20,197 bases of DNA from a virus. The notes under the pieces are model-generated. The model was not told the DNA's origin and made no database searches. It saw only the letters and a list, made by a program, of their open reading frames with translations. Below, piece after piece: positions 1 to 18,990 of the stretch (within the stretch, counting starts at the first letter, position 1; every line of letters starts with the position of its first letter). The translations under genes were made by a program, and so were the position numbers. The stretch covers positions 1 to 20,197 of IMG/VR virus record IMGVR_UViG_3300037042_001426; one strand, written 5' to 3'.

Positions 1-153
1 GTTCTTAGTTTTAGGTTTAACAAATTCTACATGAAACGGTAAGTCCGTTTTAATGTCTAAGTATCTCTTTGATACTGCTCCACTTTTATAGGTTGTGGTT
101 AAAACCTTTGTTAGCTCTCCTTGAAAACTAACAATAGACAATGTTTGTGTCAT
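1..153 (-). CDS. leftward hypothetical protein, 3' part outside window
   Basis: An open frame of 51 codons starts at ATG 153-151 and is still open at the left edge, so only the N-terminus is seen. It begins MTQTLSIVSFQGELTKVL and contains a KSGAVSKRYLDIKTDLPFHV segment. The alternation of short strands (GELTKVL, KRYLDIKT, FHVEFV) suggests a small beta-rich, possibly OB-like fold. It loosely recalls DUF3127-type single-strand-binding-like proteins, but I cannot confirm that. The start is supported by A at -3 and -6 (AAATCACC before ATG), the same context as the next leftward gene. A motif at 181-200 and a terminator at 208-235 separate the two genes, so this one probably has its own promoter. 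Confidence 0.6.
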   Translation of the reverse strand, partial: MTQTLSIVSFQGELTKVLTTTYKSGAVSKRYLDIKTDLPFHVEFVKPKTKN

Positions 154-180
154 GGTGATTTATATCTAGGACCAATGGCT

Positions 181-200
181 GTTTCAGAAATAATTAGGCA
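181..200 (-). promoter_or_regulatory. leftward promoter/operator motif, copy 1
   Basis: Read on the minus strand this is TGCCTAATTATTTCTGAAAC. Near-identical copies lie at 681-699 and 948-966. It sits 28 bases upstream of the ATG of the leftward gene ending at the window edge and just after the terminator of the preceding gene, which is where a promoter is expected. Whether it is a polymerase site or a regulator-binding site cannot be told from sequence. Confidence 0.5.
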
Positions 201-207
201 GTGTGCT

Positions 208-235
208 TGGGAAAAGAAAACCCCGTTAGGGGTTT
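208..235 (-). terminator. rho-independent terminator of the 242-628 gene
   Basis: A perfect 7-bp stem (AAACCCC/GGGGTTT, 218-224 with 229-235) closes a 4-base loop. On the minus strand it is followed by TTTTCTTTT. It lies 7 bases beyond the TAG stop of the leftward gene. Confidence 0.8.
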
Positions 236-241
236 ATCTGT

Positions 242-628
242 CTAGAAGGGAAGTCCATCATCAAGTATGATAACTTGTGGTGGTGGTGGAAGCAAGTTTA
301 GTAGCTGATGTGCTTCAGCTAGCTTCTTCTCTGCAATGGCTATTTTCTTGTCAGCCTTTGCTTGTATCTTCTCGTTTTGGAACACGCTTTGTATGTAAGC
401 AAGTTCCTGCCAGATAGGATGTCCTGAATGACAAACAATGGCAATGAAAGCATGTCCTGTCCTTGTATAAAACATAGACAAGTGCTTTCTGTTATCAGGT
501 GAGATAGCCTGATAAACACGTTCAGCGTCAGCTGTTTTGTAACGTGTTTTGAAGGTTAATGCATTAGCAATGAACCCGTAACCGTATTTCAACGGTTTAA
601 TGCTGTCAAACGTGCAGTTTGTGTACAT
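242..628 (-). CDS. 128-aa protein with SSB-like acidic C-terminal tip
   Basis: The frame runs from ATG 628-626 to a TAG stop at 244-242 and ends at a good terminator. The protein has a mixed N-terminal part (residues 1-75), a lysine/alanine-rich helix (about 85-112, with QAKADKKIAIAEKKLAEAHQ) and a proline run. Its C-terminus is VIILDDGLPF. That ending resembles the DDxxPF tip by which bacterial and phage single-strand-binding proteins recruit partner enzymes. I do not recognise the rest. A role at replicating DNA, as a DNA binder or as a mimic of the SSB tail, is inference. The AAAATCACC start context matches the other leftward gene. The motif copy at 681-699 lies 53 bases upstream. Confidence 0.75.
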   Translation of the reverse strand: MYTNCTFDSIKPLKYGYGFIANALTFKTRYKTADAERVYQAISPDNRKHLSMFYTRTGHAFIAIVCHSGHPIWQELAYIQSVFQNEKIQAKADKKIAIAEKKLAEAHQLLNLLPPPPQVIILDDGLPF

Positions 629-680
629 GGTGATTTTTGAGTAGAGGAATGGTTTGTCTCTAACTCACACAAAATGCATG

Positions 681-699
681 GTTTTGAAATGATTAGGCA
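681..699 (-). promoter_or_regulatory. leftward promoter/operator motif, copy 2
   Basis: The minus strand reads TGCCTAATCATTTCAAAAC, nearly identical to copy 1 apart from one gap and two substitutions. It is 53 bases upstream of the ATG of the 128-residue leftward protein, with no other gene in between. Confidence 0.5.
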
Positions 700-749: not shown

Positions 750-821
750 GAAAAAAAAACATGCAGTTACCGCGTGCCATCCCCTTGCTGCGGTAACCCC
801 TTAGGTATCAGTTGCATGTTT
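750..821 (-). terminator. two-tier hairpin and nine-T terminator (leftward)
   Basis: The outer 9-bp stem pairs 757-765 with 813-821. The inner 8-bp stem pairs 766-773 with 790-797 and has a 16-base loop. Both are perfect. On the minus strand the structure is followed directly by a run of T, whereas the plus side has none, so it acts leftward. The hairpin is more complex than a plain terminator and may be functional RNA in its own right. Confidence 0.65.
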
Positions 822-935
822 AATTCCATGGATATAACTCTACCATGGTAAGTCAGTGTTTTCTTGTACTGGGATTACACTTAACCCAGGCTGACCAAGC
901 TGTGCTCAAAGGTTTATTCCTTATGTTGCAGTCAA
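750..935 (-). ncRNA. putative structured leftward RNA
   Basis: Motif copy 3 (948-966) would start leftward transcription near 935. The first strong stop is the U-tract at about 751-759, giving an RNA of roughly 180 bases with no plausible ORF. Pairings visible within it are: GTCAG/CTGAC (852-856 with 891-895) enclosing CTGGG/CCCAG; two self-complementary CCATGG sites (827-832 and 843-848) able to pair; and the terminal two-tier hairpin at 757-821. The last carries the perfect stems AAACATGCA/TGCATGTTT and GTTACCGC/GCGGTAAC. No tRNA-like cloverleaf fits. Existence, ends and function are inferred. Confidence 0.45.
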
Positions 936-947
936 TACAAATGACTG

Positions 948-966
948 GTTATGAAATAACTAAGCA
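948..966 (-). promoter_or_regulatory. leftward promoter/operator motif, copy 3
   Basis: The minus strand reads TGCTTAGTTATTTCATAAC, 15 of 19 bases identical to copy 2. No gene lies downstream within reach, only the structured RNA candidate and its terminator. A short CAGTCA/TGACTG inverted repeat (930-935 with 943-948) abuts it. Confidence 0.45.
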
Positions 967-970
967 GCCC

Positions 971-1056
971 TATATATACAAATACATTCAAAGCTCTACA
1001 TATATATAAGACATACATTCTCTCCTGTGCCTCCATATACTAACTACTACATACTC
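971..1056. repeat. degenerate ~30-base direct repeats, TATATATA..ACATTC
   Basis: TATATATACAAATACATTC starts at 971 and TATATATAAGACATACATTC starts at 1001. A weaker copy (CATATACTAACTACTACAT) begins about 1034. The spacing is about 30 bases, close to three helical turns. The block is very AT-rich and would melt easily. Confidence 0.5.
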
Positions 1057-1057
1057 A

Positions 1058-1102
1058 ATGACATAGCATCACATGACATAGCCATCACATGTCATAGCCT
1101 CA
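1058..1102. repeat. three tandem 15-16-base repeats, ATGACATAGCCATCAC
   Basis: The copies are ATGACATAGCATCAC (1058-1072), ATGACATAGCCATCAC (1073-1088) and ATGTCATAGCCTCA (1089-1102). They lie head to tail and look like iterons bound by a replication initiator or regulator. No such initiator is encoded in the window. Confidence 0.65.
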
Positions 1103-1115
1103 ATACTCCCAGACA

Positions 1116-1131
1116 AAAAAGAATTCTTTTT
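1116..1131. repeat. 16-bp AT-rich perfect palindrome
   Basis: AAAAAGAATTCTTTTT is perfectly self-complementary and flanked by more A/T. It could be a dimer-binding site or an unwinding element. It lies directly after the tandem repeats. Confidence 0.45.
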
Positions 1132-1171
1132 ATTTTATTCCCAGATTCTAAAACGCCTTGGCTTTTCACAT

Positions 1172-1205
1172 GGGGGGTACCCCTCCCAGCGTTATGACCC
1201 GGGGG
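1172..1205. other. GC palindromes in AT-rich DNA
   Basis: GGGGTACCCC (1174-1183) is a perfect 10-bp palindrome inside GGGGGGTACCCCTCCC. ACCCGGGGGC follows at about 1197-1206. No U-tract follows on either strand, so these are not simple terminators. They stand out sharply from the surrounding base composition. Confidence 0.4.
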
Positions 1206-1219
1206 CTGTTTATAAGAGA

Positions 1220-1291
1220 CCCCTTACACGTTATCACTTACCTGAAAATCCCCTTACACAAGATCACACACATTAAAATTCCCTCACACAT
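1220..1291. repeat. 30-base tandem repeats starting CCCCTTACAC
   Basis: Units start at 1220, 1250 and 1280 with an exact 30-base period. The first two share CCCCTTACAC, a central ATCAC and a terminal AAAAT. The third is shorter and starts TCCCTCACACATAA. The period matches that of the repeat block at 971-1056. They immediately precede the rightward -7-like element. Confidence 0.6.
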
Positions 1292-13805: not shown

Positions 13806-14013
13806 TCAAAGTCATCTTTATGATTGGTTGTTTCATTACAATTATCATACAAACTCATGGGCAGCTTTTAGAAGAGAAGATGTTCAAGATTATTTTAATG
13901 GCATTTACAAAAATGTAATTAAAAGCAAAGCTCAAAAAACTCTAGAAGGTTTAATAGTAGCACATGAAGGAGATCTTAAAAGCATTCAAGATTTTATGAA
14001 AAAAATTAAGTGA
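13795..14013 (+). CDS. 72-aa hypothetical protein before terminase
   Basis: The protein starts MINSQSHLYDWLFHYNYHTN, with a short aromatic-rich N-terminus and a helical rest (EDVQDYFNGIYKNVIKSKAQ, LEGLIVAHEGDLKSIQDFM). It overlaps the previous gene by 11 bases and the terminase GTG by 4. A gene of this size directly upstream of a large terminase is sometimes the small subunit. Here it is short and lacks an obvious DNA-binding helix pair, so I leave it as unknown. Confidence 0.65.
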   Translation: MINSQSHLYDWLFHYNYHTNSWAAFRREDVQDYFNGIYKNVIKSKAQKTLEGLIVAHEGDLKSIQDFMKKIK

Positions 14014-16214
14014 GCACAGAGCCTTACATAACAATCCCTACTTGGGATAATGGTGAATGGACTACAACTTCTTTTGAAACACAAGAGTCATACAAAACTT
14101 TTGTTGTGTCAATGTTTAAAGTACCAGGCAAATATAATTTTGATGACACAGCTATTGAGTTTAATGCGCAAGCACGGAAGTTTCAAAGAACCGGATACTT
14201 TTGTCCATATCCTGAAGGCAGCCGTGATTTTATTGGATATTGGAATGATCAAAAAGAAAAATGCAGAAAAGGTGTAATTTTTAAAGGGTCTAAAGATACT
14301 TGGTTTCTTCCACGGGAATACTATATGTGGGTTAACTTCCTTTCAATCAATGACAAGGTAAAACGTAAGTTTGACTTTCCTGAAATTTGGGATGGTCAGT
14401 ATCACATGGCTCTATATGAACTATGTGCAGAATTACATTCAATGCACTGTGTAGTTTTAAAGAAACGTCAGTTTGGATCATCTTATTACCACTGTGCTAA
14501 ACTCATAAATCAAATCTGGTTTGAAGAAACACCTATACTTAAAATGGGTGCAAGTCTTAAAGACTACATCAATGATAAAGGTTCATGGAAATTTTTAAAT
14601 GAGTACAAGTCTTTCTTAGATGACAAGACTGCTTGGTACCGTCCTATGAATCCTGGTAAAGTTTTAATGTGGCAACAACAAATTGAAGACACAGGTCCTG
14701 ATGGACGTAGTACATTAAAAGGACTAAAAGGAACTTTACAAGGTGTAAGTTTTGACCAAAATGACACAACCGGTGTAGGGGGTGCAATACGTTACTTTTT
14801 TTATGAAGAAGCAGGTATAGCACCTAGCATGGATAAAACAGTTGAGTACTTGTTTCCCGCCTTACAATCTGGTGATATTACAACGGGAACTTTTATAGCT
14901 GCAGGTACTGTGGGTGATCTTGATCAATGTGAACCATTGAAGCACATGACCTTGTTTCCTGTAGTGAATTCTATATACCCTGTGACTACAGATTTATTAG
15001 ATGATAAGGGTACAATAGGTGAGTCAGCTTTGTTTATTCCTGAACAATGGTGTATGCCACCTTATATTGACAAGTATGGTAACTCACTTGTTGAGGAAGC
15101 TTTAGAAGCTTTAAATGCTAAATTTGAAAAGTGGAAAAAGGATCTCTCACCAGAGAAGTACCAGTTACGTATATCACAACATCCACGTAATATTGCTGAG
15201 GCTTTTGCTTACAGAAAATTATCAATCTTTCCACAAAATCTTGTTGCTGCACAGAAGAGGAGAATTGAGGAGAAAGATTATCCTTATGAGTTTGTACAAC
15301 TAGAGCGTAAAGTTGATGGCAAAATAGAACCTAAGGTCACAAACAAATTACCAATACTAGAATTTCCAATTACAAAAAACACAGAAGATAAAACCGGATC
15401 AATTGTTGTTTGGGAAAGACCTAGCCCTAAAGCAGAGTGGGGAACTTATTATGCTTCTATTGACCCTGTGTCTGAAGGTAAAACTACTACATCAGAATCC
15501 TTGTGTTCTATTTATGTTTACAAGAATCCAGTAGAAGTAACAAAGGTTGACACAGATCAAACACAAACAAACGTTGACAGAGATGGTATTGTAGCTGCAT
15601 GGTGCGGACGTTTTGATGACATCACTAAAACCCATGAAAGATTAGAGATGATCATTGAGTGGTATAACGCGTGGACAGTTGTAGAGAACAACGTTTCTCT
15701 CTTCATCCAATACATGATCAGTAAAAGAAAACAGCGTTACTTGGTACCTAAAGACCAAATGCTTTTCTTAAAAGACTTAGGTTCTAACAAGAATGTATTC
15801 CAAGAATATGGCTGGAAGAATACAGGAACTCTCTTCAAAGCCAACATGTTAAGCTACTTAATTGAATTTCTCAAAGAAGAGATTGATGTTGAGACCAAGG
15901 AAGACGGAACCATTGTAAGAACTACATTTGGCATAGAGCGTATACCTGATATAATGGCTCTAAAAGAGATGGAAGCTTACACAGATGATGTCAATGTGGA
16001 TAGATTAGTATCACTTGCAGCACTCATTGCTTTTGCAAAAGTTCAACAAGCTAACAGAGGTATACGCAAAAGAGTTGAAATTTTAGACAAGAAACATTTG
16101 CAAAAGTCAGAAAATTTGTATAAATTAAATAATAGCCCGTTTAAACATATAGGAATGGGCAAAGGAACTTTGGGTGGAAAGCCATCTAGAAATCCTTTTA
16201 AAAATATAAGATAA
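14010..16214 (+). CDS. terL: terminase large subunit (packaging ATPase/nuclease)
   Basis: This 734-residue protein is the motor that translocates and cuts phage DNA at the portal. In the ATPase half, VVLKKRQFGSSYY (148-160) is a deviant Walker A with lysines at its front and GSS where GKT/GKS is usual. AIRYFFYEEAG (259-269) is Walker B plus catalytic glutamate, and TFIAAGTVGD (294-303) fits the coupling motif. In the nuclease half, YYASIDP (480-486) gives the first RNase H-like aspartate, TVVENN (556-561) the glutamate, and YTDDVNVDRLVSLA (657-670) the last acid. The start is GTG, overlapping the upstream stop by 4 bases; the next ATG (residue 35) would remove conserved-looking sequence. The portal gene follows after 4 bases. 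Confidence 0.9.
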   Translation: MSTEPYITIPTWDNGEWTTTSFETQESYKTFVVSMFKVPGKYNFDDTAIEFNAQARKFQRTGYFCPYPEGSRDFIGYWNDQKEKCRKGVIFKGSKDTWFLPREYYMWVNFLSINDKVKRKFDFPEIWDGQYHMALYELCAELHSMHCVVLKKRQFGSSYYHCAKLINQIWFEETPILKMGASLKDYINDKGSWKFLNEYKSFLDDKTAWYRPMNPGKVLMWQQQIEDTGPDGRSTLKGLKGTLQGVSFDQNDTTGVGGAIRYFFYEEAGIAPSMDKTVEYLFPALQSGDITTGTFIAAGTVGDLDQCEPLKHMTLFPVVNSIYPVTTDLLDDKGTIGESALFIPEQWCMPPYIDKYGNSLVEEALEALNAKFEKWKKDLSPEKYQLRISQHPRNIAEAFAYRKLSIFPQNLVAAQKRRIEEKDYPYEFVQLERKVDGKIEPKVTNKLPILEFPITKNTEDKTGSIVVWERPSPKAEWGTYYASIDPVSEGKTTTSESLCSIYVYKNPVEVTKVDTDQTQTNVDRDGIVAAWCGRFDDITKTHERLEMIIEWYNAWTVVENNVSLFIQYMISKRKQRYLVPKDQMLFLKDLGSNKNVFQEYGWKNTGTLFKANMLSYLIEFLKEEIDVETKEDGTIVRTTFGIERIPDIMALKEMEAYTDDVNVDRLVSLAALIAFAKVQQANRGIRKRVEILDKKHLQKSENLYKLNNSPFKHIGMGKGTLGGKPSRNPFKNIR

Positions 16215-16218
16215 GACC

Positions 16219-18990
16219 ATGAAAGTACTAAACGCAATGCAATTAAAGGCTGGGGCCAAATCCGAATACAACCGGATGGGGAGTATAACACAGCCTATTC
16301 AGTTTATTCCAAGAAAAGAAAAAGATGATGAGTGGACAGCATGGAACTTGGATTGGCTTGAGTGGAACGGATTAAAACAAATCCGTAGAAACGCCCGTAG
16401 GCTAATGAAGAATTACAAACTTGCAAAAGGTGTAATTGATAAAGCAGACTACATTGTTGAACCAGATAATGAAATGAGAGATCTTGTAGAGACTCTTATT
16501 CAAGAAGATGCAACAGCTTTAGAATTAAAGTTTTATCCTATTATCCCTAATGTTATAAATGTTCTTACATCAGAGTTTGCTAAACGTAATACAAAAACCA
16601 CGTTTAGAGGAGTTGATGAATTTTCATACAATGAACAACTAGAAGCAAAAAGACAAGCTGTAGAAAATGTTTTATATCAACAAGCTGAACAAAAACTTCT
16701 TACGCAAATGCTAGAACAAGGTCTGGATCCTGATGATCCTGAAGTTCAACAGCAAATGCAACAACAAATGTCTCCAGAGAATCTTAAAACTCTTCCTGAA
16801 ATACAAAGCTTTTTTGACAAAGATTACAGAAGCATGTGTGAACAATGGGCTTCTCATCAAATGAAAGTTGATGAAGACCGTTTTCACATGGATGAATTAG
16901 AAGAAAGAGCTTTCAGAGATATGCTTATTACTGACCGTGAGTTCTGGCATTTTAAAATGGGTGAAGATGACTATGAAGTAGAATTATGGAACCCTGTTCT
17001 TAGCTTCTACCACAAGTCACCAGATGCCCGTTATATTTCTCAAGGTAACTGGGTTGGCCGTATAGACATGATGACTATCGCTGACGTTGTTGACAAGTAT
17101 GGTTACATGATGACTCAAGAACAAATGGAGTCTATTGAAGCCATCTACCCGGTAAGATCTGCAGGTTATCCTTTACAAGGATACCAAAATGACGGTTCTT
17201 ATTATGATGCTACTAAGTCTCATGACTGGAATACACAAATGCCTGGCCTAGCTTACCGTCAATACACCTCAATGTGGGACAATTCTATTGCTCCTGGTGG
17301 AGATATCATAAATTGGATTATGTCTGAGAGTGAAGATTACGCTCCTATGGGTGCAGCTTTCTTACTCCGTGTAACTACAGCTTATTGGAAGTCTCAAAGA
17401 AAAGTAGGACACTTAACAAAAATCTCTGAGTCAGGTGAAACTATCACAGACATAATTGATGAAAGTTATGAGATCACAGATAAACCTGTTTATAACAACA
17501 GATTAATTAAAAACAAAACCAAAGACACATTAGTATTTGGTGAACACATAGATTGGATATACATCAATGAAGTTTGGGGTGGTGTAAAAATTGGACCAAA
17601 TCATCCTTCCTTCTGGGGTATGAACAACCCAGGCGGTATCAACCCAATGTACTTAGGTATAGACAAAAACAAAATGGGACCTCTAAAATTCCAGTTCAAA
17701 GGTGATAATACGCTTTATGGATGCAAGCTTCCTGTAGAAGGAGCTGTATTCTCAGACCGTAATACACGTTCAACTGCAATGGTTGATTTAATGAAACCAT
17801 TCCAGATTGGCTACAATATTGTCAACAATCAGATTGCTGACATACTAGTGGATGAGCTGGGAACCGTAATTCTGTTGGATCAGAACGCGTTACCCCGCCA
17901 TTCATTAGGTGAAGATTGGGGAAAAAACAACTTAGCTAAAGCTTATGTTGCCATGAAGAACTTCCAGATGTTACCATTGGACACGTCTATAACAAACACT
18001 GAAAATCCTCTTAACTTCCAACACTTCCAAACTTTGAACCTAGAGCAGACACAACGTATGCTATCCAGGATTCAAATGGCCAATTACTTTAAGCAACAAT
18101 GCTTTGAAGTTATTGGTATAACTCCTCAACGTCTTGGTCAACAGATAGGTCAAACAGATACTGCAAAAGGTATTGAGCAGGCTGTAACAGGATCATATGC
18201 TCAGACTGAAGTTTACTTTATTCAGCATTGTGATTACTTGATGCCGCGCGTACATCAGATGCGTACAGACATTGCACAACATTATCATTCAACTAAACCT
18301 TCTTTACGTTTACAGTATGTTACAAGCAGTGAAGAGAAAGTTAATTTTGAAATCAATGGTACGGATCTTCTCCTCAGGGACTTAAACATCTATTGTACAA
18401 CAAAAGCAAATCAACGTTCTATATTAGAACAGATGAAGCAAATGGTTTTAGGTAACAACACTACAGGAGCAACTATCTTTGACCTAGGTAATATCATGCA
18501 AACAGAATCTCTTGCTGAATTAAACAATATCTTAAAAGCTACAGACCGTAAAGCTAATGAGCAACGTCAAGAGCAGATGCAGCATGAACAACAAATGCAA
18601 GAACAAGCTCAGCAAACAGCTCTTCAACAAAAACAAATGGAGATTGATGCTGAGATGCGTAAAGAAGAAATGCGTAACAGAACAACTCTTCTTGCAGCTG
18701 AAATCAAATCTGCAGGTTATGGTTCTATGCAAGACATTAATCAGAACATGCAGTCTGACTATGTGGATGCTATGGACAAAATTAAAGAGACTGATGAGTT
18801 TCAACAAGTGATGAGCTTTGATCAACAGAAAGAAGGAACTAAGGTTAACTTAGCCCGTGAGAAAAACACTATAGCCAAAGAAAAAATACAAGCTCAAATG
18901 ACTATGAAGCAGATGGATTTAAACATAGCCCGTGAAAACAAGAACCGTTTTGACGTGTCAAAGAAGAATCCACCAAAAAAGAAAAAATAA
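16219..18990 (+). CDS. portal protein
   Basis: This 923-residue protein is long, as crAss-like portals are. The N-terminal text FYPIIPNVINVLTSEFAKRN (about 105-124), the WNPVLSFYHKSPDAR region (about 257-271), a long central beta/helical body and DLMKPFQIGYNIVNNQIADI (about 517-536), followed by a helical stretch with RMLSRIQMANYFKQQCFEVI (about 613-632), fit the clip, wing, stem and crown of a dodecameric portal. A glutamine-rich coil (about 772-815) and a basic tail (NPPKKKK) end the protein; these may line the crown or touch DNA. It lies between the terminase and the presumed pre-capsid gene, exactly where a portal is expected. No frameshift or truncation is seen. Confidence 0.85.
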   Translation: MKVLNAMQLKAGAKSEYNRMGSITQPIQFIPRKEKDDEWTAWNLDWLEWNGLKQIRRNARRLMKNYKLAKGVIDKADYIVEPDNEMRDLVETLIQEDATALELKFYPIIPNVINVLTSEFAKRNTKTTFRGVDEFSYNEQLEAKRQAVENVLYQQAEQKLLTQMLEQGLDPDDPEVQQQMQQQMSPENLKTLPEIQSFFDKDYRSMCEQWASHQMKVDEDRFHMDELEERAFRDMLITDREFWHFKMGEDDYEVELWNPVLSFYHKSPDARYISQGNWVGRIDMMTIADVVDKYGYMMTQEQMESIEAIYPVRSAGYPLQGYQNDGSYYDATKSHDWNTQMPGLAYRQYTSMWDNSIAPGGDIINWIMSESEDYAPMGAAFLLRVTTAYWKSQRKVGHLTKISESGETITDIIDESYEITDKPVYNNRLIKNKTKDTLVFGEHIDWIYINEVWGGVKIGPNHPSFWGMNNPGGINPMYLGIDKNKMGPLKFQFKGDNTLYGCKLPVEGAVFSDRNTRSTAMVDLMKPFQIGYNIVNNQIADILVDELGTVILLDQNALPRHSLGEDWGKNNLAKAYVAMKNFQMLPLDTSITNTENPLNFQHFQTLNLEQTQRMLSRIQMANYFKQQCFEVIGITPQRLGQQIGQTDTAKGIEQAVTGSYAQTEVYFIQHCDYLMPRVHQMRTDIAQHYHSTKPSLRLQYVTSSEEKVNFEINGTDLLLRDLNIYCTTKANQRSILEQMKQMVLGNNTTGATIFDLGNIMQTESLAELNNILKATDRKANEQRQEQMQHEQQMQEQAQQTALQQKQMEIDAEMRKEEMRNRTTLLAAEIKSAGYGSMQDINQNMQSDYVDAMDKIKETDEFQQVMSFDQQKEGTKVNLAREKNTIAKEKIQAQMTMKQMDLNIARENKNRFDVSKKNPPKKKK

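Follow-up and report, generated by a model that had tools for sequence, protein, structure and literature searches.

What, if anything, is made from a stretch of about 180 bases that begins at a promoter-like motif, ends at a terminator-like hairpin and contains no gene? The stretch lies on the minus strand of virus record IMGVR_UViG_3300037042_001426 (20.2 kb; 20,197 nt), which was analysed as a whole and is referred to here as the window. The best tblastn records for the window terminase were crAss-like phages at approximately 26% identity. Judged by its terminase and portal, which place it in the Crassvirales, the window represents part of the genome of a distant crAss-like phage. It shares with crAss-like phages the terminase and portal families and the divergent early and structural blocks, and it differs from those with known early transcription (phi14:2 and phi-crAss001) in being an environmental phage of a distant lineage (TerL approximately 26% identical). 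Its nearer relatives were environmental IMG/VR contigs only; one of them, G002, is a syntenic phage with a terminase 81% identical to that of the window. An intergenic region of approximately 800 bases splits the leftward small genes (1-153 and 242-628) from the rightward genes (from 1432), and the gene-less unit sits within this divergent region, with no replication gene beside it. The relevant features are as follows.

1-153, minus strand: partial leftward gene, the aligned part 42% identical to the syntenic G002 gene
167-200, minus strand: first motif copy, upstream of the partial leftward gene (leave-one-out matrix analysis)
218-235, minus strand: terminator of gene 242-628, AAACCCC TAAC GGGGTTT
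242-628, minus strand: 128-aa gene of the next leftward cassette, no PHROG match
666-699, minus strand: second motif copy, upstream of gene 242-628 (leave-one-out matrix analysis)
751-932, minus strand: predicted ORF-less early transcript of about 180-190 nt, between motif and terminator, no ATG ORF above 20 aa
933-966, minus strand: third motif copy, TGCTTAGTTATTTCATAACCAGTCATTTGTATTG (leave-one-out matrix)
967-1183, minus strand: leading non-coding unit (P0), with GGGGTACCCCCC at 1172-1183, position-homologous by alignment to the relatives' leading unit
1201-1223, minus strand: conserved element GGGGTCTCTTATAAACAGCCCCC, pattern GGGGTCTNTTATAANNNNNCCCC
14010-16214: terminase large subunit gene, match to phrog_6681 (head-and-packaging family)
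16219-18990: portal gene, match to phrog_6547 (head-and-packaging family)

The leftward motif is 34 nt long and occurs in three copies in the window. When the third copy was scored with a matrix that drew only on the copies at 167-200 and 666-699, over the whole 20 kb and both strands, it reached 25.3 bits, compared with 5.0 bits for the next best site. This result indicated that the copy reported at 948-966 by the first-pass annotation is real and forms part of a longer motif at 933-966; the 14-nt motif core by itself was not significant. The copies at 167-200 and 666-699 each lie upstream of a leftward gene starting AAATCACCATG, and gene 242-628 is followed by an ordinary terminator. The leftward side thus has a cassette layout of motif, gene, and terminator, and the studied unit, as far as its sequence tells, is a cassette without a gene. 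A sigma-70 promoter scan gave chance-level hits only. In addition, a matrix derived from the relatives' motif did not recognise the window copies, so that the identity of the motif as a promoter, which we infer, rests on its repetition and position. For the same reason, we discarded the view that the window copies and the promoter of the relatives are recognisably one sequence.

At the other end of the unit, a hairpin scan resolved the following elements, given from 5' to 3' on the minus strand.

821-813, minus strand: outer stem 5' arm AAACATGCA, 9 bp
812-798, minus strand: one-sided 15-nt stretch between the outer and inner 5' arms
797-790, minus strand: inner stem 5' arm GTTACCGC, 8 bp
789-774, minus strand: apical loop, 16 nt
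773-766, minus strand: inner stem 3' arm GCGGTAAC, with no gap to the outer 3' arm
765-757, minus strand: outer stem 3' arm TGCATGTTT
759-751, minus strand: T9 run, its first three T paired in the outer stem

The nested 9-bp and 8-bp stems, the run of nine T and the one-sided 15-base stretch described earlier were all borne out. Since the 3' arms of both stems abut, the two helices can stack. Among the hairpins preceding T-runs of seven or more in the whole window, this one was the strongest (−21.3 kcal/mol), the next reaching −11.6 and the best across ten shuffled windows −15.2. Moreover, the 83-nt hairpin segment had a z of −3.2, with 2 of 1000 shuffles as stable. A stable hairpin with a U-run directly 3' of it is what defines an intrinsic terminator, and the best reading of 751-821 is a predicted two-tier intrinsic terminator. 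It resembles intrinsic (Rho-independent) terminators in its stable stem and the T-run at once after it, and differs from them in its two stacked stems, in the 15-nt stretch present on one side only, and in an outer stem that is AT-rich and overlaps the T-run. The suggestion that it is more elaborate than a plain terminator thus holds for its shape but goes no further, since an intrinsic terminator explains the hairpin.

No ATG ORF above 20 aa was found between the motif and the T-run, in agreement with the reported lack of an ORF across about 180 bases. The ATG frames in the unit measure 8, 16, and 20 aa, and both the 16-aa frame and the longest, 20-aa frame (829-767) run into the terminator hairpin. 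The whole unit folded no better than its shuffles (z −0.4 to −0.9), and the "several perfect stems" noted upstream of the hairpin proved to be at chance (z +0.2 and −0.3). The 3' end appears to be the sole clearly structured part of the predicted RNA.

Comparison with relatives showed early regions made up of successive cassettes, each with a lineage-specific repeated motif, a small gene, and often a terminator, some of them gene-less. In each lineage a distinct motif recurs ahead of the early genes (G002, G018, G023, L208-L222, and L202-L207): TATTATACCAGGCCTTTCCTTGT in G002, TACAGCTTnnnACT in L208-L222, and CAACCCC(C)TT or AAACCTTCCC in L202-L207. In six relatives, the leading non-coding unit could be aligned with window positions 1245-940, the GGGGTACCCCCC, GCTATGTAGTAT, and TATATATA blocks among them, which indicates that the studied unit is the cassette of the second promoter slot. 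This slot is highly variable among the relatives: it is ORF-less in L214 (and by eye in L215), holds a 48-aa frame in L222 and a micro-ORF in L208 and L209, and otherwise contains other small genes. Units that lack an ORF and close with a hairpin and T-run were found at L208 5822 (110 nt), L211 4702 (117 nt, with a 16-aa frame overlapping the hairpin), and L214 4798 (117 nt), and L215 4468 looks by eye like an ORF-less terminated unit. None of the relatives' ORF-less units resembled the window unit in sequence by eye.

G002 has a homologue of gene 1-153 and the conserved element, which is directly followed there by the first gene; the studied unit is absent and is therefore dispensable. The pattern GGGGTCTNTTATAANNNNNCCCC had one exact IMG/VR match besides the window, at the syntenic place in G002. 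Its seven matches in genome_contigs, all chance-like and in unrelated prokaryotes, were discarded. A covariance model of 748-905 searched against 53 loci (717 kb) matched the window itself and no homologue, so that no conservation among these loci supports a function of the RNA. Rfam 15 gave no match above the gathering score in the window, where matches were at chance level only (E up to 5), and tRNAs only in the relatives. DNA searches returned no match among annotated phages and, among 26 related records, short chance-level matches only, of which one fell at the syntenic position of G002. Searches of IMG/VR with the 128-aa protein, the partial leftward protein, and the motif pattern yielded no useful close relatives.

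In L208-L222, a 3-bp hairpin with a TNC triloop lies 7-13 nt upstream of TACAGCTT in 37 of the 66 early promoter copies (for example at L208 4775 and L214 4798), against a shuffled mean of 0.1; these loci are related to one another, and the copies are therefore not independent. The hairpins take the forms GCC-TNC-GGC (all four bases at N), GCT-TTC-AGC, TGC-TTC-GCA, and GGG-TAC-CCC, with a variable central loop base and some compensated stems. Promoters of the N4 virion polymerase require the C-GNA-G closing pair and loop bases (PMC4496689). At the sequence level, many L208-L222 copies share C-GNA-G on the template strand with these N4 hairpin promoters; the relatives' hairpin differs in its 3-bp stem, and the N4 and crAss polymerases are unrelated enzymes. 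The window copies at 167, 666, and 933, read directly, contain no C-GNA-G triloop hairpin.

In crAss-like phages, the early genes of phi14:2 are transcribed by a giant virion RNA polymerase, and those of phi-crAss001 are expressed within 10 min of infection (PMC8375218). Neither the window nor the examined parts of its close relative G001 yielded a gene for a giant virion RNA polymerase, and a sequence search for this polymerase against solved structures gave no match. A giant G001 frame containing ADYDPDE was rejected as a polymerase because its surroundings are unlike the crAss enzyme. The relative G018 contains a 2256-aa frame (L235 12394-19161, minus strand) with the crAss-type catalytic stretch GADFDIDK, which resembles the sequence GADFDVDK of a giant protein encoded by crAss phage cr55_1; this frame is likely a crAss-type virion RNA polymerase. 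The motifs that differ between lineages would fit a polymerase that changes along with the phage.

Taken together, we lean towards reading the unit as the source of a leftward early RNA of about 180-190 nt that is non-coding, is synthesised by the phage's own polymerase, and ends at the two-tier terminator. Early in infection, this polymerase would start at the 933-966 motif, copy leftward through the unit without encoding a protein, and stop at the terminator 751-821, just upstream of the motif of the next cassette (666-699). A free-standing small RNA would result. Early synthesis by a virion polymerase is presumed here, as is any function. Because the slot is filled in relatives by micro-ORFs, small genes, and unrelated ORF-less units, the RNA would most likely act on the host or its defences, not in a conserved step of phage replication. 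A phage early small RNA would have its own promoter and terminator and no ORF; the unit shows a motif, a predicted terminator, and the lack of an ORF, the promoter activity of the motif being putative. Of the original proposal, the early leftward RNA is thus retained as an ORF-less unit with motif and terminator, best supported by the comparison of cassette architecture and homologous position, whereas the replication-control role is not. The unit resembles phage-encoded small RNAs such as VpdS, PreS, and DicF (reviewed in PMC12197685) as a short predicted non-coding phage transcript, and a terminator-like hairpin has been reported for DicF (PMC12197685). These three differ in having demonstrated transcripts and targets (PMC12197685), the window unit being a prediction from its DNA.

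A serious rival, possible although less probable than a small RNA, is that the hairpin acts as nothing more than a plain intrinsic terminator and halts leftward transcription from P0 or from the third motif before the gene cassettes, the upstream RNA being a functionless by-product. This explanation fits the hairpin being the only part more structured than chance, the absence of any terminator found between the leading unit and 751, and the lack of the unit in G002 and of a homologue among the 53 loci. However, a motif copy belongs to the unit itself, the next gene is equipped with both a motif and a terminator and so leaves no long operon to stop, and ORF-less terminated units recur in other lineages. 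The same recurrence argues against a decayed cassette, in which promoter and terminator were left from a lost small gene; although small genes or micro-ORFs occupy the slot in other relatives, the motif and terminator are intact and no trace of a frame above 20 aa is present, and we regard decay as unlikely. It is more improbable still that the unit encodes a microprotein below ORF size limits. A similar 22-aa micro-ORF does occur in early cassettes of relatives (a set given as L186/L208, L209, L217, and L218), and the 8-, 16-, and 20-aa ATG frames (the last at 829-767) lie within the unit, but the two longer frames end in the terminator hairpin, and none of the frames is similar to the micro-ORF of the relatives or has the AAATCACC context seen at the two neighbouring genes.

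A replication-control RNA, for instance a primer or an antisense RNA at an origin located between the divergent gene blocks, is hardly credible: the region does contain conserved elements and 30-nt direct repeats (1220-1279), but these elements lie upstream of the unit and not inside it, no replication gene adjoins it, Rfam gave no match, and exact complementarity of at least 12 nt, as expected of an antisense RNA to a replication gene or primer, was absent from the window and the examined parts of G001.

On the small-RNA reading, a broader and rather doubtful speculation is that environmental crAss-like phages keep, in their early regions, a fast-changing class of RNA cassettes that lack an ORF. 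Each would have a promoter for the virion polymerase and a terminator of its own and would work in trans on the host within minutes of the start of infection; the window unit would belong to this class. The first early transcripts of crAss-like phages have been little studied beyond a few isolates, and no description of early ORF-less units turned up in the papers searched. If some early cassettes encode RNA alone, gene-based annotation misses part of the phage takeover kit. Furthermore, the comparison yields candidate early promoter motifs for several lineages.

Several other observations were made in these early regions. The two 30-nt direct repeats at 1220-1279 lie beside the conserved 1201-1223 element and could be origin iterons or activator sites; repeats of different sequence occupy the same place in G002 (L182 7530-7597) and G018 (L186 3265-3322). 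The 22-aa micro-ORF (like MVSYVIINGIVTVKEWVLNPNA) is conserved in an early cassette at L186 3662-3754, L209 2344, L217 3538, and L218 3821. A similar hairpin-rich 3' region (GAACTACATAGAAATATGTGGTTC) follows the same early gene in two phages (L186 5245-5343 and L188 7778-7880). Stretches of 1.5-1.8 kb that lack any ORF above 60 aa lie downstream of the early cassettes (L186 6139-7695 and L188 5235-7014) and represent a possible long non-coding RNA or regulatory region. Finally, approximately 20 tRNA genes on the minus strand adjoin the early cassettes of a related phage (L202 2-2623).
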